Source of the DNA: Methanoregula sp.
GTDB taxonomy: Archaea; Halobacteriota; Methanomicrobia; Methanomicrobiales; Methanospirillaceae
Assembly: GCA_030651815.1 (NCBI GenBank)
Contig: JAUSBW010000191.1
Span: 1 to 60,557, forward strand
Length of the DNA stretch: 60,557 bases
Direction of reading: 5' to 3'
Shown: piece by piece, positions 28,448 through 44,145 of the stretch
Layout of the letters: each line of letters opens with the position of its first letter
Numbering within the stretch: the first letter of the stretch is position 1
Made by a program: the position numbers and the translations under genes
Notes under the pieces: generated by a model
What the model was told of the DNA's origin: nothing
The model's input: only the letters and a program-made list of their open reading frames with translations
Database searches by the model: none

Positions 28448-29395
28448 ATGGAGTCAATAAAAAAAAATAAAAAATCCCTGCAGCTCATCCTGTTCCTAAT
28501 CGGATTATTGATTCTTGGGTACGTAATAGTAAGATCTGGGATAATTGAAAATTACCAGATCCTTTTTACCGTCAGTATTCCCCTTTTAATTCTCGCATTT
28601 TTTTTATCACTGTGTACCATCGCATGCAGGATTTACCGCTGGAAATTCTTAAGCGAAAAGTACGATGTCGCCATCAGCTGGCATGACTCCTCAATCGTCA
28701 GCATCGCAAGCCTGTTCTATGCAAATATCACTCCGGGGAAAATTGGGGATCTCTACAAGGCATATTACATGCAGAAACGGTATGCCATGAGCTTTTTTGA
28801 CGGCATTTCCATGATCTTTTACGAGCGGTTCTTTGAATTGATGATCCTCTTTCTTGCAGCGTGTGCAATTGTGTTCATCGAACTCAAAGGGATCACCGTC
28901 ATTATCCTGGAAGTGACAGCAATCATTCTCGTCCTCCTTTTCTTTTTTTATTTCAAGGCGGATTACTTCCTCTCGCTCCTAGAGAAGTACTCATCCCGGA
29001 TTCCCTTACTCAAGAAGATCCCTACTGATTTCAGGATCAGGAAGCTCCCCTTCCGGGATATTGTTGGCGTGTGCATTATTACGGTCTTCTCTCTTGGCTC
29101 TGAATTCGTGCGCCTCTGGGTGGTCACCCTTGCCTTCGGATACACCCTGAACCCCATTCTGCTCACTATCTTTTTCTGCCTCTCGATCATCGCAGGGCTG
29201 GCATCCCAGATTCCCCTCGGGGTCGGCGTGATGGAAGCGTCCCTTGGTTATTTCCTGATCTTACTCGGGGTCGCCTCAACTGATGCCATGGCAATCGTAC
29301 TCACTGACCGGCTGATATCAATGTATTTTGTCCTGATCCTCGGGTTTGTCTTCTCGAAATTTGCTGCAGACCAGTACAACGGAGTACCTGAATGA
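28448..29395 (+). CDS. Lysylphosphatidylglycerol synthase/flippase-like membrane protein (UPF0104)
   Basis: A 315-residue integral membrane protein with about eight hydrophobic segments, of the AglD-tail/LPG-synthetase transmembrane family. The characteristic motif is ITPGKIGDLYKAYYM near 94-108, and a second block is LASQIPLGVGVMEASLGYFL near 255-275. Relatives are suggested to move lipid-linked sugars or to be fused to glycosyltransferases. Here the next gene, overlapping by four bases, encodes a GT2 enzyme, the two-gene equivalent of AglD. It opens the plus-strand part of the glycan island. Confidence 0.85.
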   Translation: MESIKKNKKSLQLILFLIGLLILGYVIVRSGIIENYQILFTVSIPLLILAFFLSLCTIACRIYRWKFLSEKYDVAISWHDSSIVSIASLFYANITPGKIGDLYKAYYMQKRYAMSFFDGISMIFYERFFELMILFLAACAIVFIELKGITVIILEVTAIILVLLFFFYFKADYFLSLLEKYSSRIPLLKKIPTDFRIRKLPFRDIVGVCIITVFSLGSEFVRLWVVTLAFGYTLNPILLTIFFCLSIIAGLASQIPLGVGVMEASLGYFLILLGVASTDAMAIVLTDRLISMYFVLILGFVFSKFAADQYNGVPE

Positions 29396-30126
29396 TATCC
29401 ATCATCATACCTCTCTTCAACGAGGCGGAGAACGCACGCCTATACCCCGAACGGCTCTTTCCCGTTGCCGGGCCGATCATGGAACGGTATGGGGAGACCT
29501 ACGAATATGTCCTTGTGGATGACGGGAGCAGAGATACGACTCTCGATGAACTCAACAAGTTCAAAGAGATACAGAAGAATGTGGTTGTCGTTCCCCATGG
29601 CGTGAACAAGGGGATGGGGGTGGCAGTGAGAACCGGGCTCGCACATAGCAAGGGAGATCTAGTCATCATGATGGACTCCGATCTCACATACCGTCCGGAA
29701 GATATCGAAAAACTGCTGGCAGATTACAAGGAGACCGGTGCCGACTGCATATCTGCGTCTCCCTACCGTGGAAAAGATCTCGCAAAGGAGATCTCCTCAC
29801 CGTTCCGGCTCTTCATCAGCAAATCCGTTAATTTTCTTTACCGGGTACTCTTGCAGGACGACCTCACGTGCGTCAGTGCCATCTTTCGGCTCTATAAGAA
29901 AGTGGCGCTTGATGAGCTGACCCTTGAGAGCAACAATTTTGAGATCTGTGCGGAGATCATCTCAAAACTTATCCTGAATGGGAAGTCCGTGCACGAGATC
30001 GGGGTGAAGGTCCACACGCGTGAGTTTGGCGAGTCTAAGCTGAATGTGAAAAAAGAGGTTGTCAACAACCTGCGGATCCTCTCCAAAATTTTCAAGGCGA
30101 AGTATCTCAGGCAAAAATGGCAGTGA
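29392..30126 (+). CDS. GT2 family glycosyltransferase (dolichyl-phosphate sugar synthase type)
   Basis: A 244-residue soluble GT-A fold enzyme. It has the start motif SIIIPLFNEAENA, the VLVDDGSRDTT nucleotide-binding segment near 40 and MMDSDLTYRP (DxD-like) near 92. It has no C-terminal membrane helices. Close relatives transfer mannose or glucose from a nucleotide sugar to dolichyl phosphate. It overlaps the UPF0104 gene, so the pair probably makes and moves one lipid-linked sugar. Confidence 0.9.
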   Translation: MISIIIPLFNEAENARLYPERLFPVAGPIMERYGETYEYVLVDDGSRDTTLDELNKFKEIQKNVVVVPHGVNKGMGVAVRTGLAHSKGDLVIMMDSDLTYRPEDIEKLLADYKETGADCISASPYRGKDLAKEISSPFRLFISKSVNFLYRVLLQDDLTCVSAIFRLYKKVALDELTLESNNFEICAEIISKLILNGKSVHEIGVKVHTREFGESKLNVKKEVVNNLRILSKIFKAKYLRQKWQ

Positions 30127-30237
30127 ACACCGGCACCCCCGATAATCCCGGGGTTTGAACCTGTTGAGAAAATACCGGGCGATTTAAACGACGATATTAT
30201 CGAAAAGCACGGATTTTGTGGAATTTTTTGTTTTTCA

Positions 30238-30252
30238 CAATATTTATATTTC
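30238..30252 (+). promoter_or_regulatory. TATA box region of the nucleotide-sugar epimerase gene
   Basis: CAATATTTATATTTC sits in a 193-bp intergenic region about 70 bp before the chosen ATG and predicts a leader near 50 nt. Confidence 0.45.
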
Positions 30253-30319
30253 GGTCTTCCCCTAATTATGAATGGATTGTTAATTTTCTTCCGTGAATAA
30301 ACAGGAAAAAGGTCACATC

Positions 30320-31324
30320 ATGCACAAAGAAACGGTATTAATCACGGGGGGGGCAGGTTTTATTGGCAGCAATTTAACCGAATTCCTCCTCAAAAGCGGA
30401 CACAGAGTCATAGTTCTCGATGATCTCTCCCGAAGCACTACAGACAATATCCGTGCCTGCTACAACTATTCACCCAATTTTTATTTTGTAAATGGCTCTG
30501 TAATGGACTTTGAACTGGTGGACAGGCTGGTAAATAATGTAGATATGGTCTTCCATCTGGCTGCTCAGGTTCACTGGGAAGAATCAATCGACAATCCCGT
30601 ACCCAGTTTTGAAGTGCACACACGCGGGACCCAGAATGTACTTGAAGCAGTCCGGCGAGCTATGACCCGCCGGGATCCCCTGAAACTGATGTTATACGCA
30701 TCCTCATCTGAAGTCTACGGAACCGGGCAGTATATGCCAATGGATGAAAACCATCCATTCAACCCGCAATCACCCTATGCAGCGGGAAAGGCAGCCGCGG
30801 ACCGCCTCTGTTCCTCATACCACCACGTGTACAATCTGCCTATCATAATTCTCAGGCAGTTTAACACCTATGGACCAAACCAGAGAATGAAGGGCTATTC
30901 AGCAGTGATACCGAAGTTTGTTTCACAGGTAATGAACAATTGTCCGCCTACAGTCTACGGAAGCGGTGTCCAGACAAAGGATTTCCACTATATCGACGAT
31001 CTTATCGCAGCATATTCGCTCATTATTAACAAATGGGAAGATCTGGATATGTTCGGTACGGCAATCAACTTCGGGACTGGTAAAGAGACAAGCGTCAATG
31101 ATCTTGCAAGGATTATCATTGATACCATTGCCAAGGAAACGGGCAGGGATCTGAAAGATATGAGCTCGATTCACCTTCCAAAACGCCCGGGTGAAGTGAT
31201 GCGGTTTGCAGCGGACATCTCCCTTGCAAAAAAGAGCCTCGGATTCACGCCAAAAATTGATATTAAGAAAGGTATTGAAAAATATGTACGCTGGTACATT
31301 AAAGAGGGTTCATGGTCCGGATAA
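30320..31324 (+). CDS. NAD-dependent nucleotide-sugar epimerase/dehydratase
   Basis: A 334-residue extended short-chain dehydrogenase. It has the Rossmann motif GGAGFIGSNL at residue about 10, a Ser in YASSSEVYG and the catalytic YxxxK as SPYAAGKAAADR near 155. A RPGEV motif near the C-terminus binds the nucleotide sugar. Candidates are UDP-glucose/GlcNAc 4-epimerase, or GDP-mannose or dTDP-glucose 4,6-dehydratase; the sequence read by eye does not decide. I prefer the ATG at 30320, which has AAGGT seven bases upstream, over a GTG nine codons earlier with none. A T-run follows the stop (31325-31331). Confidence 0.88.
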   Translation: MHKETVLITGGAGFIGSNLTEFLLKSGHRVIVLDDLSRSTTDNIRACYNYSPNFYFVNGSVMDFELVDRLVNNVDMVFHLAAQVHWEESIDNPVPSFEVHTRGTQNVLEAVRRAMTRRDPLKLMLYASSSEVYGTGQYMPMDENHPFNPQSPYAAGKAAADRLCSSYHHVYNLPIIILRQFNTYGPNQRMKGYSAVIPKFVSQVMNNCPPTVYGSGVQTKDFHYIDDLIAAYSLIINKWEDLDMFGTAINFGTGKETSVNDLARIIIDTIAKETGRDLKDMSSIHLPKRPGEVMRFAADISLAKKSLGFTPKIDIKKGIEKYVRWYIKEGSWSG

Positions 31325-31377
31325 TTTTTTTGTATTTTATCAGGGTGGATGGGATAGCAGTAAGTCCCCCAACAACC

Positions 31378-32442
31378 CTAAAATTTTGAAACGACCGTAT
31401 CAATTATTTTACGTGAACTTTCCCCATTCCCAAAAAGCGATAGATCGGGAGAGCCTTGCGGATTAAAGCTTGAAACCGCCTCAATTATTTTTTCCGGGTT
31501 GTCATCAACAAGGATATTCCATCCACTCTCTGTTGTTTCCACCCATTCGGTATTCGGTCGTAACGTGATGCAGGGTTTTGAGAGGAAAAACGCCTGTTTT
31601 TGTGCTCCACCGGAATCGGTTAAAAGTTTTTCAGAATGGAAGATCATCCGAAGGAATTCAAAATACCCTGCAGGTGAGATCGCGTGAATATTGTCCGGCA
31701 TACTAATATTAAAACTCTGGATTCTTTGTTTTGTCCGTGGGTGAATCGGAAAGATTACCGGATAGGGAACAGAAGACACCGCATCAAGAATATTTTTTAA
31801 CCGATCCTTATTATCGGTATTTGCTTCCCGGTGAAGGGTGAGCAGGAGATAGGGTTTTTGTGTAAGGGATAAATCTTCGAGAGTCCTTGCTTTATTTTCA
31901 ATCAACTTCCGGTAGTAGGTGATCGAATCGAGCATCACATCCCCAACCAGAAAAACATTATCGTGAATCCCATTGTCATGCAGGTTCCTGATTCCTCTCT
32001 CTGTTGGGGAAAAAAGAGCATCTGAAAAATTATCGATAATTACCCGGTTAATTTCCTCTGGCATGGATCGATCGTAACTTCGCATACCGGCTTCAAAGTG
32101 ACCTACTTTGATCTTTGATTTGTTTGCTGCAAGAGCAACGCCAAGGGCAGTGTTTGTATCTCCAGTAACAAGGAGAATATCGGGGTTTTCTTTACGGAAA
32201 ATTGATTCGGATTTTGTGATCATCTCACCGATCTGCTCACCGGGAAGCTTAGAACCGATTCCAAGGTAATGGGTGGGATCAGGCACATCCATCTCTTCAA
32301 AAAAGATTTTATCCATTTCATAATCGTAGTGCTGACCTGAATGGATGAATATATATTCAATATTCCGTCCAACCAGTTCACGAATGATTGGTTCAACCTG
32401 GATAAATTCCGGTCTTGTTCCTGCTGCTATTGCAACTTTCAT
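31378..32442 (-). CDS. wecB: UDP-N-acetylglucosamine 2-epimerase (non-hydrolysing)
   Basis: A 354-residue WecB-type enzyme that interconverts UDP-GlcNAc and UDP-ManNAc for surface glycan synthesis. Recognised by AAGTRPEFIQVEPI at the start, SGQHYDYEMD near 36, VTGDTNTALGVALAA near 96, LTLHREANTDN near 205 and LLTDSGGAQKQAFFL near 282. It is the most distal gene of the minus-strand half of the glycan island and converges with the epimerase gene across 53 bp. Confidence 0.93.
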   Translation of the reverse strand: MKVAIAAGTRPEFIQVEPIIRELVGRNIEYIFIHSGQHYDYEMDKIFFEEMDVPDPTHYLGIGSKLPGEQIGEMITKSESIFRKENPDILLVTGDTNTALGVALAANKSKIKVGHFEAGMRSYDRSMPEEINRVIIDNFSDALFSPTERGIRNLHDNGIHDNVFLVGDVMLDSITYYRKLIENKARTLEDLSLTQKPYLLLTLHREANTDNKDRLKNILDAVSSVPYPVIFPIHPRTKQRIQSFNISMPDNIHAISPAGYFEFLRMIFHSEKLLTDSGGAQKQAFFLSKPCITLRPNTEWVETTESGWNILVDDNPEKIIEAVSSFNPQGSPDLSLFGNGESSRKIIDTVVSKF

Positions 32443-32535
32443 AATTTCCCCTGAATCGTTGATTAATGATCTGTGATTGCCTTTCTTTCTGTGTTCAATG
32501 TTGTTTGTTATGAATCGTTATGGCATTTGTGATAA

Positions 32536-33882
32536 TTATTCTTTTTTTAAGGTTAATGTCTGGAAAAAAAATTTCATCCAATTAATCATTCCTTCCTTTG
32601 GTCTGATGATGAAGTAAAGCAGGATGAAAAACGCGATATATTCCAAGGTAAAAAAACCGAGCGTCAGATACCAATCTGAAGTGCCAACCGGGTTGATATA
32701 GTTAAGATTTACATAATATTTTCCAAACATCAAGGGAAACTCTACGTATGCAAAGATCTGGGTGACATAGAATAATACGATCTTTACTATATCGTCAGCA
32801 ACGAGCAGAGCGAGGAATGGTGTAAACCAGACAAGATACTGGGGACTATGGAATTTTGTGAAAAAGACCAGGCAGAAAATTGCACATAGCACTAACTTTA
32901 TCAGATTTTTGGGATTTTTTTCACTTTCTGCATACGCAAAGTACAAGAGGAGGAGGAGGGTGATGCCCATCAGTGCATACATCACCATTGATACAGTGGT
33001 TGGAGAGATCCCCAGATGGAGAACATCATGGAGGAAAGAATAAATGGTGAAAGTAGCTGTATTCACATACACCCCGAGGCTTCCACCTGTTGCAAAAAGA
33101 TATGTGCGGATGACATCGGGGTTGATGAGAGCAAACGGTAATAGCAATAAAATGCAGAACAGGAGGAATATTTTCCCTGCAGATATCAGCTCTGTTTTGA
33201 GTGAGGTGGATTTCGCATTGTATAAAACCATGAACGGGAGTGCGACCACCGGGAAAATTTTTGTAAAAAAGCCCAGCGTTGCGAAGACGTATCCCTTTGT
33301 GTTCATGCCATATATGGTAAAAAGAAGGGCTACCATAAGAATGCATGTCGGAAATGCATCAGACTTTGTCAATACAAAATAGGCTGTGGAAAATGCTGTT
33401 GCGTAGAGAAGACCTCCCAAAAATGCGATCTTCTCACTCCAGATTCTCAATCCAATGAGATAAACGCAGAGCGCGATCAGGATATCACACAATACCATGA
33501 GAATCTGGAATGAGAGTGCAAAAACCATGGCGTTTTGAGTCAACACCGCAGGGATAAAGGCAAGTAGTATCGGGATGAACAGCAGGATTGGGTACTCAAA
33601 CTGATAATTTATATAGGGTACCTGTCCCTGTAAGAGGGGGGCCGCACTGTTCAGGTACACACCAATATCGAAGTAATCGATAAACGAGCCAAAAACTTCC
33701 GTAGTAAAAAAAACCACCACGAACTTCATGATAATGGTGGCAATAATCAGCATTGTCACGTGGTGTTTCACAGTCTTTTTATCAACAGCTTCAAACTGGG
33801 TACCTAGGAGTGCAAAGGGATGATTTCCCCGCTTTCCCTTCCTTGATAACTGCTCTGCATCAATATTGTTTTTTTTCCCCAT
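32536..33882 (-). CDS. Polytopic membrane glycosyltransferase, GT87/DUF2029-like
   Basis: A 448-residue integral membrane protein with about ten to twelve hydrophobic segments after a basic cytosolic N-terminus. An Asp-containing first loop (FIDYFDIGVYLNSAAPLLQGQVPYINY) and the late KFHSPQYLVWFTPFLAL motif match GT87-type polyprenyl-phosphate-mannose-dependent mannosyltransferases, which add sugars on the outer face of the membrane. Donor and acceptor are not determinable here. It is separated from its neighbours by short, AT-rich gaps. Confidence 0.75.
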   Translation of the reverse strand: MGKKNNIDAEQLSRKGKRGNHPFALLGTQFEAVDKKTVKHHVTMLIIATIIMKFVVVFFTTEVFGSFIDYFDIGVYLNSAAPLLQGQVPYINYQFEYPILLFIPILLAFIPAVLTQNAMVFALSFQILMVLCDILIALCVYLIGLRIWSEKIAFLGGLLYATAFSTAYFVLTKSDAFPTCILMVALLFTIYGMNTKGYVFATLGFFTKIFPVVALPFMVLYNAKSTSLKTELISAGKIFLLFCILLLLPFALINPDVIRTYLFATGGSLGVYVNTATFTIYSFLHDVLHLGISPTTVSMVMYALMGITLLLLLYFAYAESEKNPKNLIKLVLCAIFCLVFFTKFHSPQYLVWFTPFLALLVADDIVKIVLFYVTQIFAYVEFPLMFGKYYVNLNYINPVGTSDWYLTLGFFTLEYIAFFILLYFIIRPKEGMINWMKFFFQTLTLKKE

Positions 33883-33970
33883 ATTCCATCTCCGATTCAG
33901 CTGATTATTACCTTTAATGACGTATAATTATTCCAGAGACCACCGGAATTACGTATCCTGCACAGGATGA

Positions 33971-35077
33971 TCATTTCCTTGTCCACGTAACTCTTCTATT
34001 CACCATGAAATTCCACCCGAACCCCACCAGGATTCCGATGATATTAGAGATGAGATAATAAACCCCCCCAACGCTTGTCAGCAAGTACAGGATTCCCATG
34101 TTGATAACAAGCCCTCCGGCTGATACCACATGAAAGGAAATGAGACGGTGCAACCGGCTGGAAAGTTTATGCGATGCCCCTGCCTTAAACGTCCAGAGAT
34201 CATTCCAGATGAAATTATTGAGTATGGACAATTCAATAGCGAAGAGGCTTGAGACAAGATAATAGAGGCCAACGAACTCCGTCAGGTACCAGAGTAAACC
34301 CATATTCACAACAATCCCAGAAATCCCCACCAGACCGAACTTAAACACCCGCTTCCATTCCCTCCACACCGCACTCTCGTGATGCAAAAACGAAAAGAGT
34401 GTGATATCGATAACTTGCTGGGCATACTCGACAATCGTTTTCAGTTTTAGTTTGCTCGAACCGATCTCCCGGTCCACGAATTCGAAAGGAATCTCCTTGT
34501 CCTTCTCCCAGGTTCCCTTGCCAAGCACCTCAAGCAGGATTTTATAACCCCGGGGTTTTAACGCAGCTTTTGCCACAACACTCTTCCTGACAGCAAAAAA
34601 ACCGCTTACCGGATCCGAGACATCAGGAAAGAGCAGGCGTCCTAAAAACGTAGCTCCGAGCGAGATTACCCGGCGTTTGAGTGGCCATTTTTTAATTCCG
34701 CCCCCTTCCATATACCTGCTTCCGATGACAATATCATTACCATCCATAATCTCGGTATACATGACAGGAATAAGAGCCGGGGGATGTGAGAGATCGGCAT
34801 CAATTACCACAAGAATGTCTGATGAAGCCTGAACAAATCCTTCAGCCACGGATTGTGAAAGTCCGTGATCCACCAGACGGACAATAATATTTACATTAGG
34901 TCTTGTTTTTTTAATTTCATTGACAATCGAAATAGTCCCATCTGGAGAGTTATCATCAACGACAAGGATCTCCCCATTGAGATTATTCCGCTTGAAAACC
35001 GCATCCACTTCGGTGACAATATTCCGGATATTTGCCTCTTCTTTATAGGTTGGGATGATCACCGTAAGGTCGTACAT
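33971..35077 (-). CDS. GT2 glycosyltransferase with C-terminal GtrA-like membrane domain
   Basis: A 368-residue fusion. The N-terminal 220 residues are a DPM1-type GT-A domain (TVIIPTYKEEANI, VVDDNSPDGT near 40, VIDADLSHPP near 92, GSRYMEGGG near 120). The C-terminal 140 residues hold four helices of the GtrA/PF04138 type (FGLVGISGIVVNMGLLWYL, LISFHVVSAGGLVINMGILYLL). Such fusions make a polyprenyl-phosphate sugar and flip it. The next gene downstream is a lipid-linked-sugar-dependent GT87-like enzyme, the logical user of the product. Confidence 0.92.
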   Translation of the reverse strand: MYDLTVIIPTYKEEANIRNIVTEVDAVFKRNNLNGEILVVDDNSPDGTISIVNEIKKTRPNVNIIVRLVDHGLSQSVAEGFVQASSDILVVIDADLSHPPALIPVMYTEIMDGNDIVIGSRYMEGGGIKKWPLKRRVISLGATFLGRLLFPDVSDPVSGFFAVRKSVVAKAALKPRGYKILLEVLGKGTWEKDKEIPFEFVDREIGSSKLKLKTIVEYAQQVIDITLFSFLHHESAVWREWKRVFKFGLVGISGIVVNMGLLWYLTEFVGLYYLVSSLFAIELSILNNFIWNDLWTFKAGASHKLSSRLHRLISFHVVSAGGLVINMGILYLLTSVGGVYYLISNIIGILVGFGWNFMVNRRVTWTRK

Positions 35078-35099
35078 GGCGGTTCACAAGTGGGGGGGA

Positions 35100-36635
35100 C
35101 TAAGCTGAAACAAAGAGATAGATCCCGGTGTTCTGCCCGAGTGGTTTTGTGTACGCATTTAACCATGCTACCGCATCACCGTTCGGATTTGCCGAACTGA
35201 TATCTCCGGTGACGATGAAAAATGCGGTATTATTTCCTTTGCCTGCATTGATCACTTCAAGTTGTTTTCCGGTGTTTGCACCAAACTCGAACGTCTGATC
35301 AGATGCATTTGAATAGTAATAATTGAGCGGTTGGGAGATATATCCCGGTACCACAACCACAAGATCCCCGGGCTGGGTCATCTGCTGAATCTGACCGGAA
35401 AAACCTCTCCAGTCCTCTTTTGAGTACCCTTTATAAAAGTCCACAAGGGTGGGGGCGCTGACGATAACGAGGAGTGCGATAAAGCCATAGACAACCCCCC
35501 GGTTGTTGATGAGACTGTAGAACATCTTATACGATATTGCAACACCGATGAAAAAAACGGTGTTGAAAAAGATCAGGTAGCGGGGAACCATCGGCATTTT
35601 GTAGGAGAGAATGAAGCTGATGATAAACGTAAGAACGGTGAGTGTCACTAAAAAGATTCCTTTGTTTTTATCTATGAGAAATGCCTGGATGACGCCGATA
35701 ATAAAGAGGATGAGAAACAGGAACATCGAGATGTCAGAAAAGCCGGAGAGCTGCCTGAATGTTTCGCTGATGATTCCCAGTCCCTGGATACCGAAGGCTG
35801 GTGCAGAGGATGTCCTGGTTGCGAAGAGCTGGATCGCCAGCAGAATGAGGGGGAAACAGAGGACGACAAACAAAACAATTGATACTGCAATCATTTTGAG
35901 ATTTTGCATGTTTTTCTGGAGATCTCCGATCTGAAGGAAAAATGCATAGAGGATAAGGGAGGCAATAATGACAAACGAATAAAAGTGCGACCAGAACGCA
36001 AGAGCGGAGAGTATGCCAAACAAGGCCCAGTTTTTCAGCTCATTTGTTTTTAAGGCTTTGAAGTAGAAGACCATTGCAAATGCCACAAAAAAGAGCATCA
36101 TCGAGTATGCCCGGGCTTCCTGCGAATAAAAGATCAGGAATGGTGAAAATGCAAATGCTGCTGCGGCAATAATCCCGACATTGCGATCCATGAATTCCTT
36201 TCCTGCAAAATAGATCAGTGGAATGGTCAGTACCCCGAGGAGTGCAGGAACAAACCTGAGTACTACTTCATTGTTCCCAAACACCAGCATGATATGCTCG
36301 ATCCAGTAGAACAGAGGGGGGTTGAACTCCCCCCCCGCAGTAGCTTTCCAGATGTCGGGAATTGACATTACAGCAAACGTATTCGTAGAGGCTTCATCGA
36401 GCCAGAGCGAGTTGAACCCGAGATTGTAAAACCTGAGGAAAAAACCAAGAATGGTCAAAATGATAAGAGATTGTGCATAACGGCTGTGGGCTACCACAGA
36501 TTTGATATTTTCAACACTGATATCCCGAAACGACTGGATCGGGGAGATGTAATCCCCGTCAAGATTACATTCGGTATCTCCTCCCGATTTTTTTCCTTTT
36601 CCCCGATCCTCGCGTTTTTTCGCCATTGCTATCAT
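35100..36635 (-). CDS. Membrane glycosyltransferase of the ArnT/PMT (GT39-like) type
   Basis: A 511-residue polytopic membrane protein. After a Lys/Gly-rich N-terminus and a first helix comes the acidic luminal motif FNSLWLDEASTNTFAV near 72, equivalent to the DE motif of PMT/ArnT enzymes. About eleven hydrophobic segments follow, and the C-terminal 110 residues form a soluble outer domain. These enzymes transfer a sugar from a polyprenyl phosphate to lipid or protein. The start may be 36635 (MIAMAKK) or 36626 (MAKK). It heads the minus-strand glycan unit, 22 bp before the GT2-GtrA gene. Confidence 0.85.
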   Translation of the reverse strand: MIAMAKKREDRGKGKKSGGDTECNLDGDYISPIQSFRDISVENIKSVVAHSRYAQSLIILTILGFFLRFYNLGFNSLWLDEASTNTFAVMSIPDIWKATAGGEFNPPLFYWIEHIMLVFGNNEVVLRFVPALLGVLTIPLIYFAGKEFMDRNVGIIAAAAFAFSPFLIFYSQEARAYSMMLFFVAFAMVFYFKALKTNELKNWALFGILSALAFWSHFYSFVIIASLILYAFFLQIGDLQKNMQNLKMIAVSIVLFVVLCFPLILLAIQLFATRTSSAPAFGIQGLGIISETFRQLSGFSDISMFLFLILFIIGVIQAFLIDKNKGIFLVTLTVLTFIISFILSYKMPMVPRYLIFFNTVFFIGVAISYKMFYSLINNRGVVYGFIALLVIVSAPTLVDFYKGYSKEDWRGFSGQIQQMTQPGDLVVVVPGYISQPLNYYYSNASDQTFEFGANTGKQLEVINAGKGNNTAFFIVTGDISSANPNGDAVAWLNAYTKPLGQNTGIYLFVSA

Positions 36636-36751: not shown

Positions 36752-37630
36752 TCAGACATCCCTTTTACCGATAAGCGGGGAATTGACTGATTCCAGTAAC
36801 TCTATAGTACTGGAAACCACCTTTGACGATTCTTCAAGCATCAGGTTTACCTGCTCGTGCATGCCAGCCCTGCGGAAATCCGTGCGAACCGCAATCACCG
36901 GTTTGTTGTGTGCATACGCATACCCCATCTCCCATGCGGTGCCGGAATCTGCATCCGCGCCATCGATAACTGCAACAACAAAATCCGCATGATCGAGATC
37001 GCTTTTGTTTTTAGAGAAGATCCGTACCTGCTCTCTTTTCATCCTCGTATCTGTATCATCACCCGCTTCCTGGGGAAGAAAGACTTCAAACAGGTGTTGT
37101 TTCAGCAGATCCGCTAACATTGCATTATAGGTACGCTCGGCTGTGGAAAAAAGAGGTGCGGCAAGATATATCCGGTACCTTGCAAATGTTGCGACATCCA
37201 TAGCGCAGATATCAGGAAACCGTGCAAGAAACACCCCCCGCCCCGTCCGTTTTGGCGGTTGTTGATCCTCACCCCCATAATAGGTGCTGGTCACTCCGCA
37301 GGCAGGAGAGGAGTTGACACCAAGGATGCAAAGTGGTGGACCCCGTTTAACGATGATATCCTGCACTTGTAGTTCAAGCGTGTCCATCAGGCTGGCAAAT
37401 GCCATGGTGTTCAGCCGTTCGAGAAATGTTCCGGGTTTCCTGTCAGGACCAAGGTACAACGTCTCGGGGCAGGGGAGTGGCACCATTTCAATACCGAAGC
37501 TTTTGCAGCGTGCGATCGCTCGTTCGAACAGTGCGAGGTCCGAGGATTTTGTAATACCCATAGTCCGGAGTTCCGGGTGGAGAATGCAGGGGCTGCAGAG
37601 CACGTACATTGATACAGTGTGTGCACGCAT
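36752..37630 (-). CDS. Fusion of a TudS/DUF523-like [4Fe-4S] desulfurase domain and a nucleoside 2-deoxyribosyltransferase domain
   Basis: A 292-residue two-domain protein. Residues 1-145 carry the three cysteine positions of the DUF523/TudS family: C12/C15 in VLCSPC, C54 in CPE and C111 in SSPACG, followed by GVTSTYYGG. TudS uses a three-Cys [4Fe-4S] cluster to remove sulfur from 2-thiouracil. Residues 150-280 are a nucleoside 2-deoxyribosyltransferase-like fold (IYLAAPLFSTAER, VAVIDGADADSGTAWEMGYA with the family Glu, KPVIAVRTDFR). A thiobase or modified-nucleotide salvage enzyme is the natural inference. A start at 37609 (MYVLC) is also possible. Divergent to tsr3, only nine bases apart. 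Confidence 0.78.
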   Translation of the reverse strand: MRAHTVSMYVLCSPCILHPELRTMGITKSSDLALFERAIARCKSFGIEMVPLPCPETLYLGPDRKPGTFLERLNTMAFASLMDTLELQVQDIIVKRGPPLCILGVNSSPACGVTSTYYGGEDQQPPKRTGRGVFLARFPDICAMDVATFARYRIYLAAPLFSTAERTYNAMLADLLKQHLFEVFLPQEAGDDTDTRMKREQVRIFSKNKSDLDHADFVVAVIDGADADSGTAWEMGYAYAHNKPVIAVRTDFRRAGMHEQVNLMLEESSKVVSSTIELLESVNSPLIGKRDV

Positions 37631-37639
37631 GGATGATCA

Positions 37640-38134
37640 ATGATACCCCTGTACGCCTACCGGGATAACAGCTGTGACCCCCGGAAGTGTACGGTTAAAA
37701 AACTTGAAAGAGCGGGTTTTTTAAAAATATTTACTAAAATCCCCCAGATCCCACGAAACACTCTTCTGCTCGATCCCACTGCTGAACAGGCACTCTCTCC
37801 TGCAGACAGGTTCGTGAGATCGATAACCGCGCTCGACTGCTCCTGGATGGTACTGGATACAGGTGCAGTCCGTTCATGGCGCATCCGCAGGGCACTCCCA
37901 TTCCTGATGGCAGCAAATCCCGTCAACTTCGGCAAACCCTGCAAGCTCTCCTCGATTGAGGCCCTCGCTGCTGCGTTGTACATTCTGGGTGAAAAAGATC
38001 GGGCTGCTTCAGTTCTCTCAAAGGTAAACTGGGGGATCCGTTTTTTGGAAGTGAACCAGGAGCCGCTTGATCTCTATGCAAATGCCAGGGACAGCACAGA
38101 AGTGGTGAAAATTCAGGCACTCTACATAGACTGA
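37640..38134 (+). CDS. tsr3: 18S/16S rRNA aminocarboxypropyltransferase Tsr3
   Basis: A 164-residue DUF367/Tsr3 protein, a SPOUT-like enzyme that transfers the aminocarboxypropyl group of SAM to a small-subunit rRNA nucleotide at the decoding site. Family motifs: CDPRKCTVKKLER near residue 12, ALDCSWMVLD near 70 and the SAM-site AANPVNFGKPCKLSSIEALAAAL near 94-116. It starts nine bases from the start of the divergent fusion gene, so its promoter must lie inside that coding sequence. Confidence 0.93.
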   Translation: MIPLYAYRDNSCDPRKCTVKKLERAGFLKIFTKIPQIPRNTLLLDPTAEQALSPADRFVRSITALDCSWMVLDTGAVRSWRIRRALPFLMAANPVNFGKPCKLSSIEALAAALYILGEKDRAASVLSKVNWGIRFLEVNQEPLDLYANARDSTEVVKIQALYID

Positions 38135-38393: not shown

Positions 38394-39425
38394 ATGATCA
38401 AGGTTGCCATCAACGGGTATGGTACAATCGGCAAGCGCGTTGCCGATGCGGTCGCTGCCCAGAAGGATATGAAAGTTATCGGTGTCTCAAAGACCCGCCC
38501 AAACGCAGAGGCCTTTGTTGCAAAACAGAGGGGGTATCCACTCTATATTGCTGATCTTTCCAAGAAAACGGCTTTTGAAAAAGTCGGTCTTTCGGTTGCC
38601 GGTTCAGTAGAGGATATGTGTAAAGCTGCTGACATTATTGTCGATGCAACACCAGGAGATGTCGGGGCAACGAACAAGCCCCTCTATGCAAAACTCGGAA
38701 AAAAGGCGCTCTGGCAAGGGGGAGAGGATCATGAAATTGCCGGGTTCTCGTTCAATTCATCCTGCAACTACAAGGATGCGATCGGCAGACAGTTTGTCAG
38801 GGTAGTCTCCTGTAACACAACGGGGCTCTGCCGGATTATCCATGCGATCGATAACGAATACGGTGTCGCTCATGTGCATGCAATCATGGTGCGCCGCGGT
38901 TCCGATCCCGGGGAGATCAAAAAAGGACCTATCGATGCGATTGTTCTGGATCCCGTGAGTGTACCCAGCCATCATGGCCCGGACGTCCTGTCGGTGCTCC
39001 CCCATATTTCTATCGTTACCATGGCGATGATCGTGCCAACCACGATGATGCACATGCATGCGATCCGGATCACCACAAAAAAAGATGTAACAAAAGATCG
39101 GGTCATAGAACTGGTGAAAAATCACCCCAGACTGGGACTGATAAAAAAGACTGCGGGGATCAGGAGCACCGCAGAGCTCAAGGAGTTTGCCATGGATCTT
39201 GGGAGACAACGAGCGGATCTGTACGAGAACTGTATCTTTGAAGATTCGATCTATGCCAACAAAACCGATCTCTGCTTCTTTCAGGCAATCCACCAGGAAG
39301 CAGATGTAGTGGTTGAGAATATCGATGCAATCCGCGCGATGATGGGAGGACAGAAGGATGCTGCAGCGTCCATAAAATCAACCAACGATGCACTCGGGTT
39401 TACACCGATCCAGAACAACCATTAA
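38394..39425 (+). CDS. gap: Type II (archaeal) glyceraldehyde-3-phosphate dehydrogenase
   Basis: A 343-residue archaeal phosphorylating GAPDH, which acts in gluconeogenesis and glycolysis with NADP or NAD. The Rossmann motif [15 protein letters not shown] is at the N-terminus and the catalytic Cys is C140 in [29 protein letters not shown] near 163 is diagnostic of the archaeal class. About 260 bp of AT-rich non-coding DNA precedes it. TyrS follows after 25 bp. Confidence 0.97.
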
Positions 39426-39450
39426 CACCCATCATCACCCATTCTTTTCA

Positions 39451-40392
39451 ATGGATGCGTACGAACGGGTTACCCGCAACACAGTCGAGATCGTAACAGA
39501 AGACGATCTCCGTTCGCTACTAAAAAAACCCTCAAAAAAGGTTTATGCAGGATACGAACCCAGTGGCGAGATCCATCTTGGCCACCTTGTCACGGTCAAC
39601 AAATTAGTTGATCTCCAGGCTGCCGGATTCGAAGTCGTTGTACTGCTGGCCGATGTGCATGCTTTCTTAAACCGCAAAGGGACCATGGAAAAGGTGCGGG
39701 AACTTGCCGATTATAACCGCCGCTGTTTCGAAGGGCTTGGATTAAAAAACGTCCATTACGTGCTGGGATCCGATCTCCAGCTCAACCGGGACTACGAGCT
39801 GCTCGTGCTCCAGCTCTCGCAGCAGATCACCCTCAACCGTGCAACGCGCAGTATGGATGAAGTAGGAAGGCAGATGGATCATCCCACCGTCTCCCAGATG
39901 ATCTACCCTATAATGCAGATGGCCGATATCGCAATGCTTGGCGCGGATGCGGCAGTAGGAGGCATAGATCAGCGCAAGATCCACATGCTTGCGAGGGAGC
40001 ATCTGGTCAACTTCGGCTATGCTGCACCCGTCTGCATACACACGCCAATCCTGAACGGGATTGACGGAAAGAAGATGTCCTCTTCGCAGGGAAACTACAT
40101 CTCGGTTGCAGACACGGAGGAGGAGATAAAAAAGAAATGCCAGAAGGCGTTCTGCCCGCCGGAAATTCCCGAGAACCCGATACTCCAGATCTTCCAGCAC
40201 CACCTCTTCCCACGCCTCCCGGAGATCACCATCAAACGGCCGGAGAAATATGGCGGTGACCGAACGTTTTCAAGTTACATAGATTTGGAAACTGCCTATG
40301 GCAAAAGCGAAGTGCACCCTATGGATCTCAAGAAATCATGTGGTGAATCACTCATAGAGATCCTTGCGCCGGTGCGAGACTACATCCAGTGA
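39451..40392 (+). CDS. tyrS: Tyrosyl-tRNA synthetase
   Basis: A 313-residue archaeal TyrRS, class I, short form without the bacterial S4 domain. It has YAGYEPSGEIHLGHLV (HIGH-type motif) near residue 34, YPIMQMADIAML near 155 and KMSSSQGNYIS near 210. I chose the ATG at 39451 (MDAYERVTRN), the usual N-terminus; the upstream in-frame ATG lies inside gap. It probably shares a transcript with gap. Confidence 0.96.
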   Translation: MDAYERVTRNTVEIVTEDDLRSLLKKPSKKVYAGYEPSGEIHLGHLVTVNKLVDLQAAGFEVVVLLADVHAFLNRKGTMEKVRELADYNRRCFEGLGLKNVHYVLGSDLQLNRDYELLVLQLSQQITLNRATRSMDEVGRQMDHPTVSQMIYPIMQMADIAMLGADAAVGGIDQRKIHMLAREHLVNFGYAAPVCIHTPILNGIDGKKMSSSQGNYISVADTEEEIKKKCQKAFCPPEIPENPILQIFQHHLFPRLPEITIKRPEKYGGDRTFSSYIDLETAYGKSEVHPMDLKKSCGESLIEILAPVRDYIQ

Positions 40393-40423
40393 TCATCCCG
40401 TAAATCCAGGAATGTGACCCCCC

Positions 40424-41200
40424 TTGAGTCTTGAAAAAAAAGAGGATCGATTCGATCAACTGATAGAGGAAATGGGCATCCGTATCAAGGATGCTGACCA
40501 GTTCAAGGTGCGGGAGGATGTCTTTGACGAAGTCACACTTCTTGCACTCTACAAACTGGTGCATAAAAAATGGTTATCGGTAATCGGTGGTTCGATCAGC
40601 ACCGGCAAAGAGGCAAATGTATTCTATGGTGAGCGGGACGGAGCGGCAATCGCCATCAAGATCTACCGGATCCGCACAGCAAATTTTACCACAATGAGTT
40701 CCTATGTCACGGGTGACCGCAGGTTTTCACACGTAAAAAAGGCCAAAAAGGATCTCATCTTTGCATGGACCCGAAAGGAATTCTCGAACCTGGTACGGGC
40801 GCGGGATGCGGGTATTGCCGTACCTGAACCAATTGTCTGGGACAGGAATATCCTGATTATGTCCTTCATAGGTGAAGGGGAGATCGCTTACCCGCAACTG
40901 CGAAATGTCACAATGGAAGATCCTGCTGAAGTCTATGAGACGATCACCCGCACCATCGATATCCTGTACAACAAAGCGGAGCTGGTGCATGCTGACCTGA
41001 GCGAGTTCAATATTTTATACGGTGACCAACCCTATTTCATAGATATGGGACAGTCTGTCACCCGCGATCATCCCCGGGCACTCCAGTTCCTGATGCGGGA
41101 TATTCGTAATATCAACCGGTATTTTAAAAACCGATGCGAAATCCGTAAGGATTTTGATCTGTTCAATGCAGTTACCGGACTGAATGTTGCCGAACCATGA
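40424..41200 (+). CDS. rio1: RIO1-type serine/threonine protein kinase
   Basis: A 258-residue atypical kinase of the Rio1 family, needed for late small-subunit maturation. It has the flexible ATP loop GGSISTGKEANVFYG near 49, the Lys in AIAIKIYRI, the catalytic loop HADLSEFNIL near 188 and the metal-binding FIDMGQSV near 205. The N-terminal winged helix of Rio2 is absent. The only start in frame that gives the full domain is TTG at 40424. A KH-domain protein follows 81 bp downstream, the usual archaeal pairing, here without the eIF1A gene often found between them. Confidence 0.93.
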   Translation: MSLEKKEDRFDQLIEEMGIRIKDADQFKVREDVFDEVTLLALYKLVHKKWLSVIGGSISTGKEANVFYGERDGAAIAIKIYRIRTANFTTMSSYVTGDRRFSHVKKAKKDLIFAWTRKEFSNLVRARDAGIAVPEPIVWDRNILIMSFIGEGEIAYPQLRNVTMEDPAEVYETITRTIDILYNKAELVHADLSEFNILYGDQPYFIDMGQSVTRDHPRALQFLMRDIRNINRYFKNRCEIRKDFDLFNAVTGLNVAEP

Positions 41201-41281
41201 TAACTATTGACTGCCAATGGATGAGTGTCAAAATAATCTGCAATTGAAGTATAATCGTATCAAAAACAAGGTGAAACAAAC

Positions 41282-41827
41282 ATGATGCAGGAAGTTAAGA
41301 TTGCCGGAAGCAGGGTGGGTGTCCTTATTGGAAAAGGCGGCGCTACCAAGAGAGAGCTCGAGGCCAAAACCCACGCCACCATCACCATAGACAGCAAAGA
41401 AGGGATTGTAAAAGTTGAGGGTACTGAAGAGCACACGATCTCCCTTCTCCGCGCTGTCGAGATCATCAACGCCATCAACTGCGGTTTTTCCCCCGAACGT
41501 GCATTTGAGATGATCGAGGATGAGGATCTGCTGCTTGAAGTCATCGATCTCTCGGGAATGGCGGATGGTCCGCGCCAGTTGGACAGGCTCAGGGGCCGGA
41601 TCATTGGCAAAGACGGCAGGGCACGGGAACAGATCGAAGATATGACCGATGTGGAGATCTCGGTGTTTGGGAAGACTGTCGCAGTGATTGGGTATCCCGA
41701 GCAGCTTAAAACCGCCCGGGCTGCCATCGATATGCTGATCGAAGGCGTTCCACACGAGAATGTCTTTGCCTTTTTAGACCGGAAGAAGAAAGAGGCAAAA
41801 CAGGATATGATCAGTTATTATTATTGA
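41282..41827 (+). CDS. Two-KH-domain RNA-binding protein, Dim2/Pno1-like
   Basis: A 181-residue protein with two KH domains: the first with GVLIGKGGATKRELE near 13-27, the second with GRIIGKDGRAREQIE near 102-116. It is the archaeal homologue of Dim2/Pno1, which binds the 3' end of small-subunit rRNA during maturation; archaeal forms have also been linked to eIF2-alpha and rRNA binding. Its position after rio1 fits small-subunit biogenesis. ATG at 41282 or 41285. Confidence 0.9.
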   Translation: MMQEVKIAGSRVGVLIGKGGATKRELEAKTHATITIDSKEGIVKVEGTEEHTISLLRAVEIINAINCGFSPERAFEMIEDEDLLLEVIDLSGMADGPRQLDRLRGRIIGKDGRAREQIEDMTDVEISVFGKTVAVIGYPEQLKTARAAIDMLIEGVPHENVFAFLDRKKKEAKQDMISYYY

Positions 41828-41879
41828 ACGCTGAGACTGCTGAACATCCCGCAATTATATTTATGTTTTTGCTGCGTTT

Positions 41880-41970
41880 CCACTGGAAAATAAATTGGAA
41901 TAAAACGGCTTATTTGATAAACAGCCAAGATAACAGGGAAATTTCAGTGGAATCCATGGGGTATTAAATA
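41880..41970 (+). promoter_or_regulatory. hel308 promoter with two sequences resembling origin recognition boxes
   Basis: CCACTGGAAAATAAATTGG at 41880-41898 matches the dyad half of the ORB motif found 3.6 kb away but lacks the G-tract. TCAGTGGAATCCATGGGG at 41944-41961 keeps a GTGGAA core and the GGGG and runs straight into TATTAAATAC, a TATA box 14-23 bp before the ATG. The box-then-TATA order is the same as in front of orc1. Box likeness is partial (12 of 18 positions for the second). Confidence 0.4.
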
Positions 41971-41982
41971 CAAAGGTTTGAC

Positions 41983-44145
41983 ATGCTGATCTGTGAGCTC
42001 CCGATTCCTGCTGAACTGAGACAGCGGTACTCTCAAGGGGGGATTTCTGAACTCTACCCTCCCCAGGCAGACTGTGTTGAACGGGGCATGTTCAAGGGGA
42101 AAAACCTGCTCGTTGCCATACCCACAGCAAGTGGAAAGACGCTGGTTGCCGAGATGGCAATGCACAGCCACATTGCAGCGGGGGGAAAATGCCTCTATAT
42201 CGTTCCCTTAAAAGCACTCGCCAGTGAAAAATACGATGAGTTTGGCAACAAAGGTGTCCGTGTCGGTATTGCAACCGGGGATCTTGACCGGCGCGATGAT
42301 CAGCTGGGAAGGAACGATATTATCGTTGCTACGAGCGAGAAGGTGGATTCCCTCCTCCGCAACAGCGCACGCTGGATCGGCGACATCACCCTGCTTGTTA
42401 TCGATGAGATTCACCTGATTGACTCTGTTGATCGCGGACCAACGCTGGAAGTGGTGATCGCAAAGATGCGGTACCGTAATCCTGCTATGCAGGTGATTGG
42501 GCTTTCCGCTACGATTGGCAATCCAAAAATTTTTGCCGGGTGGCTGGATGCCGAACTGGTCACCAGCAACTGGCGCCCGGTCGATCTGCGGCAAGGGGTG
42601 TTCTACAACAACCGCATCCACTTCCGTGACGGGGAACGTCCCGTAAAGCAGGTATCAAAGAGTTTTGATGACCTCAATCTATGTCTCGACACTATCGCAG
42701 AGGGGGGCCAGTGTCTTGTCTTTGTCTCATCCCGCCGCAATGCTGAGGCATTCGCAAAACGGGCGGCCTCTGCCATCAAATGCGAAGATCCCGCTCTTAC
42801 TGCCTATTCAGAGCAGCTCGGTGGCATTGCAGAGACTGATATGGTCAAAACACTGGCCGCATGCGTGGCCAAAGGTGCTGCCTTCCACCACGCTGGGCTG
42901 AGCCGCCCCGAACGTGCGATAGTGGAAGAGGGTTTCCGGAAAGGCCTGATCAAATGTATATCATCCACACCTACGCTGGCTGCAGGGCTCAACCTGCCTG
43001 CCCGAAGAGTTATCGTAAGGGATTACCTGCGGTTTTCTGCAGGTGAGGGGATGCTGCCGATTCCCGCGAGTGAGTACCACCAGATGGCAGGGCGGGCGGG
43101 ACGCCCCCGGCTCGATCCGTACGGCGAGGCGGTGTTGATAGCAAAGGATGAGAGGCAGATAGAAGATCTCTTCGAATGGTATATCGAAGCACCTGCAGAA
43201 AAGATCCATTCAAAAATTGCCGAGCCAACTGCGCTCTACACCCACGTGCTCTCGCTTATCGCATCCGGTTTTGCTAAAACCAGAAAGGAACTCACGGAAT
43301 TTATGGACCGGACGTTTTATGTCCATGAACACCGGAAGGGTCACCTGATGAAAAAAGCGGTGGATGACGCGCTTTTATTCCTTGTTTCATCAGAGATGGT
43401 TATTGAGGTGGGAGAGCACCTGGGATCCACAGAGTTTGGCAGTATGGTATCCCGGTTGTATATCGATCCCCGCAGTGCGGAAATTATCGTCCGGGCTCTT
43501 CGCGGACAGAGGGGGTATTCGGATCTTGGCATCCTGCAGGTGATCTGCTGCACTCCGGATATGCCCAATCTCTATGCGCGGAATGCCGATATACCCGCAC
43601 TTGACCGCATGCGGGAGGCACATGTTGGTGAACTCTGGTTTACACCCCCGCTGGATGAGGACGAGGCAGAGACCTACTATCGTGCATTGAAGACTACGAT
43701 GCTCCTGTCCGACTGGGCAGACGAACTCCCTGATGCAAAGATCTGCGAGAGGTACTCGGTCGGTCCCGGAGATGTACACGGGATGGTAGAGAGTGTCAAC
43801 TGGCTGCTGCATGCAACCGTTGAGCTCTCCCGTATGTTTGCAGCATCCATCCACTTAAAGGTGCGGGAATATGAGATCTGCATGAAGAACGGGATCCGTC
43901 GTGAACTGCTCCCGCTGGTGAAACTGCGGGGCATCGGGCGGGTGAGGGCACGACGCCTCTTTAACAATAACATTACGTCCCCGGATGCACTGCGTGCGGC
44001 AGGGATTGAAACCGTGACACAGATCCTTGGTCAGGGAATTGCAGAACAGATCTTTTCCCAGCTGCACAGGAATGCCAGCCCGGCTCCGTCGACTGATGAT
44101 AGCAATGCGGTAACCGGACAGTCACAGCTGTCCAGATTCGGGTGA
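41983..44145 (+). CDS. hel308: ATP-dependent DNA helicase Hel308
   Basis: A 720-residue superfamily 2 helicase that acts 3' to 5' at stalled replication forks. Motifs in order: Q-like YPPQADCVE, Walker [12 protein letters not shown] near 46, motif [11 protein letters not shown] near 143, motif [12 protein letters not shown] near 172, motif [15 protein letters not shown] near 330 and motif [16 protein letters not shown] near 366. A C-terminal helix-hairpin-helix region ([13 protein letters not shown]) near 650 completes domain V. It lies 1.3 kb from moaB and 1.9 kb from the predicted origin. Cgi121 follows after four bases. Confidence 0.96.

Follow-up and report, generated by a model that had tools for sequence, protein, structure and literature searches.

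A conserved fusion of a TudS-like domain with a nucleoside 2'-deoxyribosyltransferase domain in the Methanomicrobiales: a possible salvage enzyme for thiolated nucleosides

TudS (DUF523, PF04463; structure 6Z92) is a [4Fe-4S] desulfidase acting on thiouracil and 4-thio-UMP. In TudS_A, the cluster is held by Cys10, Cys43, and Cys104, and the catalytic residues are Glu45, Ser101, and Ser103 (PMC10611767). TudS acts on 4-thio-UMP with a kcat/Km more than 2000-fold above its value for 4-thiouracil (PMC10611767). At the level of domain architecture, 58.9% of TudS proteins are single-domain and 40.1% are fused to DUF1722 (PMC11417400), the latter arrangement being that of the tRNA s4U eraser RudS. 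A related family, CD3072 (NF045597), groups TudS-related putative desulfidases. The nucleoside 2'-deoxyribosyltransferases (NDTs; PF05014), among them the Desulfotalea enzyme 7O62, CtNDT, and LlNDT, usually act on deoxynucleosides, a preference linked to a Tyr at the site of Tyr155 in the protein described below. Here, we analyze an archaeal protein that, like RudS, has two domains with the TudS domain at the N-terminus, but whose partner domain is an NDT instead of DUF1722. The first-pass annotation of this DNA knew of no characterized enzyme of this design, and we likewise found no TudS-NDT fusion among 5.39 million open-access papers, which do include work on TudS and RudS.

The fusion is encoded on the minus strand of a 60,557-nucleotide stretch of Methanoregula DNA, referred to as the window. 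Its full open reading frame (36752-37630) spans 292 codons (292 aa), and we number residues in this 292-aa frame; numbers in the short, 285-aa form are lower by 7. Translation probably starts at the ATG at 37609, because homologues open at MYVL and several of them have a stop codon just upstream.

36752 to 37609, minus strand: TudS-like/NDT fusion gene in its probable form, 285 aa (MYVLCSPC...), stop codon at 36752-36754, delimited by the ORF call and the homologue starts
37610 to 37630, minus strand: upstream residues MRAHTVS that use of the first ATG would add in frame; most homologues lack them or have other sequence there, and they are probably untranslated

A sequencing or frameshift artefact as the source of the fusion can be ruled out, since both halves are encoded in a single uninterrupted frame in dozens of independent genomes. 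The copy of Methanogenium cariaci (L026) is interrupted by apparent small insertions within runs, which are probably sequencing errors.

Matches to the fusion were found in 144 of 150 Methanomicrobiales genomes, including 108 of the 109 high-quality ones, and nearly always as a single full-length copy. Comparison of the window sequence with its relatives yielded pairwise dN/dS values of 0.15-0.27 in both halves, indicating that both are under purifying selection. Together, this prevalence and these values argue that the fusion did not arise by chance. Among 393 genomes of the phylum, the N-terminal domain is fused in Methanomicrobiales only; elsewhere it stands alone, in ORFs of 139-215 aa. 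Scanning 84,980 species by sequence pattern, an approach that reaches close relatives only, matched residues before position 100 in Methanomicrobiales loci only. One Methanoregulaceae genome (L089, G214) carries, in addition to the fusion, a true CD3072-family gene, scoring 182 bits and thus above the NCBIfam cut-off.

When both domains were predicted together with AlphaFold2, the model reached a mean pLDDT of 86.6 and a pTM of 0.84, and the linker comprised a few residues; this model confidence and the short linker suggest two domains with a defined relative placement. Fold searches with the whole model returned only NDT-type folds, covering residues 142-285 of the short form. Since a single domain fills the match list of the whole model, we predicted and searched the N-terminal domain alone. 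Structure prediction, a check that the first-pass annotation had proposed for both halves, linked the N-terminal domain to TudS 6Z92 and the C-terminal domain, within the whole model, to the NDT 7O62, with the register of the Cys residues provided by hhalign.

37190 to 37609, minus strand: TudS-superfamily domain (residues 8-147)
37586 to 37588, minus strand: Cys15, equivalent of the TudS_A ligand Cys10
37469 to 37471, minus strand: Cys54 of a CPE motif, equivalent of the TudS_A ligand Cys43, with Glu56 at the position of the catalytic Glu45
37298 to 37300, minus strand: Cys111 of an SSPACG motif, equivalent of the TudS_A ligand Cys104, with Ser108 at the position of Ser101 and Ala110 at the Ser103 site

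The isolated model (pLDDT 94.2) retrieved TudS 6Z92 and its sister entries as the sole outlier in Foldseek (probability 1.00, E 1.4e-3), and its structural comparison with 6Z92 gave a Z score of 10.5 over 132 residues (rmsd 3.6), the next-best row reaching 4.8. Single-family profiles detect the domain below their cut-offs: PF04463 scores 18.3 bits with the whole protein (E 0.0025) and 20.4 bits with the N-terminal domain alone, under the gathering cut-off of 34.7, and the closest sequence family, NF045597 (TudS_rel_CD3072), scores 49.2 bits (E 4.4e-13) against an equivalog cut-off of 130 bits, which the other listed fusions likewise miss at about 51-72 bits. A sequence-profile search of the PDB with this domain produced no match. 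In hhalign, the profile of the N-terminal domain aligned with stand-alone archaeal CD3072-like members at a probability of 99.7% and with five canonical TudS proteins at just 47%, the three Cys nonetheless being in register in both cases. On the basis of fold, profile alignment, and conservation, we assign the N-terminal domain to the TudS superfamily.

Across 73 distinct fusions, Cys15, Cys54, Cys111, Glu56, Ser108, and Arg22 are invariant, the last being the equivalent of the phosphate-contacting Arg17 of TudS. The ligand set initially read from the sequence, C12/C15, C54, and C111, thus holds for the last three residues, whereas position 12 is a Cys in just 17 of the 73 proteins. Two further TudS positions have changed. 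The site of the catalytic Ser103 (position 110) is occupied by Thr in 46 fusions, Ala in 15 (including the window protein), Cys in five, Val in four, and Ser in three, and Ala takes the place of the base-stacking Tyr18 in 71 of the 73; because of these replacements, the substrate of the desulfidase may differ from that of TudS. The same replacements, and the scores under both the Pfam and NCBIfam cut-offs, would also suit a domain that binds a cluster yet is no longer a desulfidase and that senses or stabilizes instead, for example by gating the NDT according to redox state or iron supply. As the presumed catalytic residues Glu56 and Ser108 vary no more than the ligands do, we regard such a sensor as quite improbable.

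The C-terminal half is clearly an NDT-family domain by both profile and predicted structure, in agreement with the first-pass reading of an NDT-like fold with its Glu.

36755 to 37186, minus strand: NDT domain (residues 149-292)
36929 to 36931, minus strand: Glu234, the NDT nucleophile (LlNDT Glu98, CtNDT Glu88), in a WEMGYAY motif that is invariant in stand-alone relatives too
36845 to 36847, minus strand: Asn262 of an NLM motif, a 5'-OH ligand that NDTs give to the neighboring subunit (PMC7308715, PMC10913048)
37007 to 37009, minus strand: Asn208, at the LlNDT Asp72/CtNDT Asp62 site, a proposed ribose gatekeeper

PF05014 matches this half with 96.1 bits (E 2e-27), well past the gathering cut-off of 28.8, no DUF1722 match was obtained, and the best structural match, 7O62, has a Z score of 17.3 over 134 residues. 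The features shared with NDTs are the fold, the nucleophilic Glu, the Asp and Asn that bind the 5'-OH, and Tyr7; the archaeal AvNRT has Phe7 where the fusion has Tyr. Glu234, the 5'-OH ligands Asp228 and Asn262, and Tyr155, with roles taken from work on NDT active sites (PMC7308715, PMC10913048), are all invariant in the 73 fusions. In DNPH1/CMP N-glycosidase, a 5'-phosphate-binding Ser replaces the NDT 5'-OH ligands.

Where the fusion departs from other NDTs, apart from its additional N-terminal domain, is position 208, which is Asn in 42 fusions, His in 22, Leu in six, Cys in three, and Asp in none, while aligned stand-alone NDT relatives keep Asp at the equivalent site. TbNDT also has Asn there. 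In LlNDT, Asp72 contacts the pyrimidine O2 and, when changed to Asn, the 2'-OH (PMC11647913), and Asn at this site has been proposed as a ribonucleoside gatekeeper, although this role is debated (PMC12645435). As the matching Asn mutation in CtNDT and LlNDT brought no better ribonucleoside turnover (PMC12645435, PMC11647913), we rejected Asn208 as proof of ribonucleoside use; judged from the alignment, the changed residue would mark a shifted substrate without saying which.

Genes for the NDT without the N-terminal domain occur in a few genomes of one family, f3 (L148, L149, L150, and L151), near tsr3 and in three cases directly beside it. In the tree, this lineage is nested among the fused f3 members with a support of 99/91, so that the simplest explanation is a loss of the N-terminal domain with retention of the NDT, which would therefore be valuable without a desulfidase-like partner. 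Outside the order, a stand-alone NDT accompanies the CD3072-like gene in every sampled member of the Methanosarcinaceae that has this gene, yet an NDT is also present in many that lack it; we dropped this co-occurrence of separate N- and C-terminal genes as a weak argument, since NDTs occur there with and without the N-terminal counterpart.

Both observations nevertheless accord with two housekeeping activities that share a chain and no common substrate, in which the N-terminal domain would desulfurize thio-uridine nucleotides or nucleosides, the NDT would swap bases on ordinary (deoxy)nucleosides, and fusion would serve co-expression or supply an oligomeric scaffold for the desulfidase. That the NDT-only lineage kept its gene at the tsr3 locus and that TudS prefers nucleotides both point in this direction, but almost every genome of the order retains the fusion, and the site contacting the base and the 2'-OH is altered in the fused NDT relative to stand-alone NDTs. 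We thus consider two unconnected activities somewhat unlikely.

We then considered the genomic surroundings. The divergent neighbor of the fusion gene encodes Tsr3.

37640 to 38134, plus strand: tsr3/DUF367 (rRNA aminocarboxypropyltransferase), 30 bp off, NF002621 208 bits

This adjacency is conserved across the order: BLAST placed tsr3 at 23 of the loci L001-L024, and the gap measures 29-37 bp in most of 46 measured cases. Counting by text pattern gave tsr3 at 46 of 71 loci, an undercount, because variant starts escape the pattern. The short gap, kept across much of the order, would be compatible with a possible shared bidirectional promoter. In the window (37607-37642), the two divergent starts, about 30 bp apart, lie within an inverted repeat, CATTGAT...ATCAATG. 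Beyond tsr3 (38394-44145) follow genes for GAPDH, TyrRS, a Rio1-like kinase, a KH-domain protein, and a Hel308-like helicase, a run that is conserved in several relatives. Downstream of the fusion (29392-36635) lies a cluster of glycosyltransferase and nucleotide-sugar genes that is partly conserved within the genus, the glycosyltransferase being common mainly to members of the genus.

Since Tsr3 modifies rRNA and RudS provides a precedent (PMC11417400), one might suppose that the NDT is a binding module that steers the desulfidase to larger RNA, as DUF1722 does in RudS, so that the protein would erase thiolation from RNA. Yet the catalytic residues of the NDT are all invariant, the NDT persists alone after loss of the desulfidase domain, and RudS-sized PF04463 genes are present as separate genes in other genomes of the Methanomicrobiales, and we consider an RNA eraser of this kind very improbable.

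A different association was found for the stand-alone relatives. In Methanosarcinaceae, a gene for an NcsA/TtuA-family tRNA thiolase (TIGR00269) is found no more than a few kilobases from the CD3072-like gene at 14 of 15 loci; at 13 loci from other families, no such thiolase was found nearby. The proximity may be simple synteny inside one family. At the Methanosarcinaceae loci L153, L155, L160, and L163-L173, the two genes usually share a strand and are separated by other sequence. ThiI, the s4U8 synthase, was detected in all 60 Methanomicrobiales genomes tested, so that thionucleosides should arise in these organisms.

Taken together, we tentatively favor, at slightly less than even confidence, the view that the fusion combines two activities to salvage sulfur-modified nucleosides from tRNA turnover. 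In such an enzyme, the N-terminal domain would bind a [4Fe-4S] cluster through Cys15, Cys54, and Cys111, leaving one iron free; this iron would take the sulfur off a thiocarbonyl base, as in TudS, with the help of Glu56 and Ser108, and sulfide would be released. In the C-terminal domain, Glu234 would attack C1' of a nucleoside, as opposed to a nucleotide, and cleave its N-glycosidic bond, and either water or another base would then receive the sugar. The computations show the identity of the domains and their conserved sites, and from these we infer cluster binding, both activities and their coupling, the substrate, the order of steps, and channeling.

In favor of the salvage enzyme are TudS as the one structural outlier among the matches of the N-terminal domain, the six invariant residues of this domain, and its Cys aligned with both TudS and CD3072-like proteins, together with a clear NDT whose catalytic residues are all invariant, purifying selection on both halves, and the near-universal fusion in the order. 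The presence of ThiI in the order and the CD3072-like genes near an NcsA-family thiolase in Methanosarcinaceae point the same way, as does the window genome, in which no other TudS-family gene was found at E 1e-3. Several observations stand against it: the replaced Ser103 and Tyr18, the nested NDT-only lineage, the normal use of deoxynucleosides by NDTs combined with an invariant, preference-linked Tyr155, and the conservation of tsr3 as the neighbor in place of a gene for tRNA thiolation or salvage. Moreover, TudS favors thio-UMP, and an NDT that has 5'-OH ligands is not expected to bind this nucleotide. The order suggested in the first-pass annotation, release of the thiobase followed by its desulfurization, is possible, but for canonical TudS it is disfavored by the kinetic preference for 4-thio-UMP over 4-thiouracil (PMC10611767); desulfidation of the nucleoside as the first step is at least as open.

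In a more specific and rather unlikely version of thionucleoside disposal in archaea, the NDT site, retuned where it contacts the base and the 2'-OH, would cleave thiolated pyrimidine ribonucleosides, the adjoining [4Fe-4S] site would desulfurize, and the intermediate would be handed between the sites. The substrates would perhaps be 2-thio pyrimidine ribonucleosides, since the stand-alone relatives are linked to NcsA.

Because the window protein scores under the Pfam cut-off, it would escape domain counts such as those above (PMC11417400). If the proposed function is true, the chemistry of Fe-S desulfidases would extend to a family overlooked by present annotation, and this would be, as far as is known, the first such desulfidase coupled to glycosidic-bond chemistry. 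We know of no archaeal route for disposing of thiolated nucleosides from tRNA turnover; a fusion carried almost throughout one methanogen order makes thionucleoside disposal in archaea testable with one protein.
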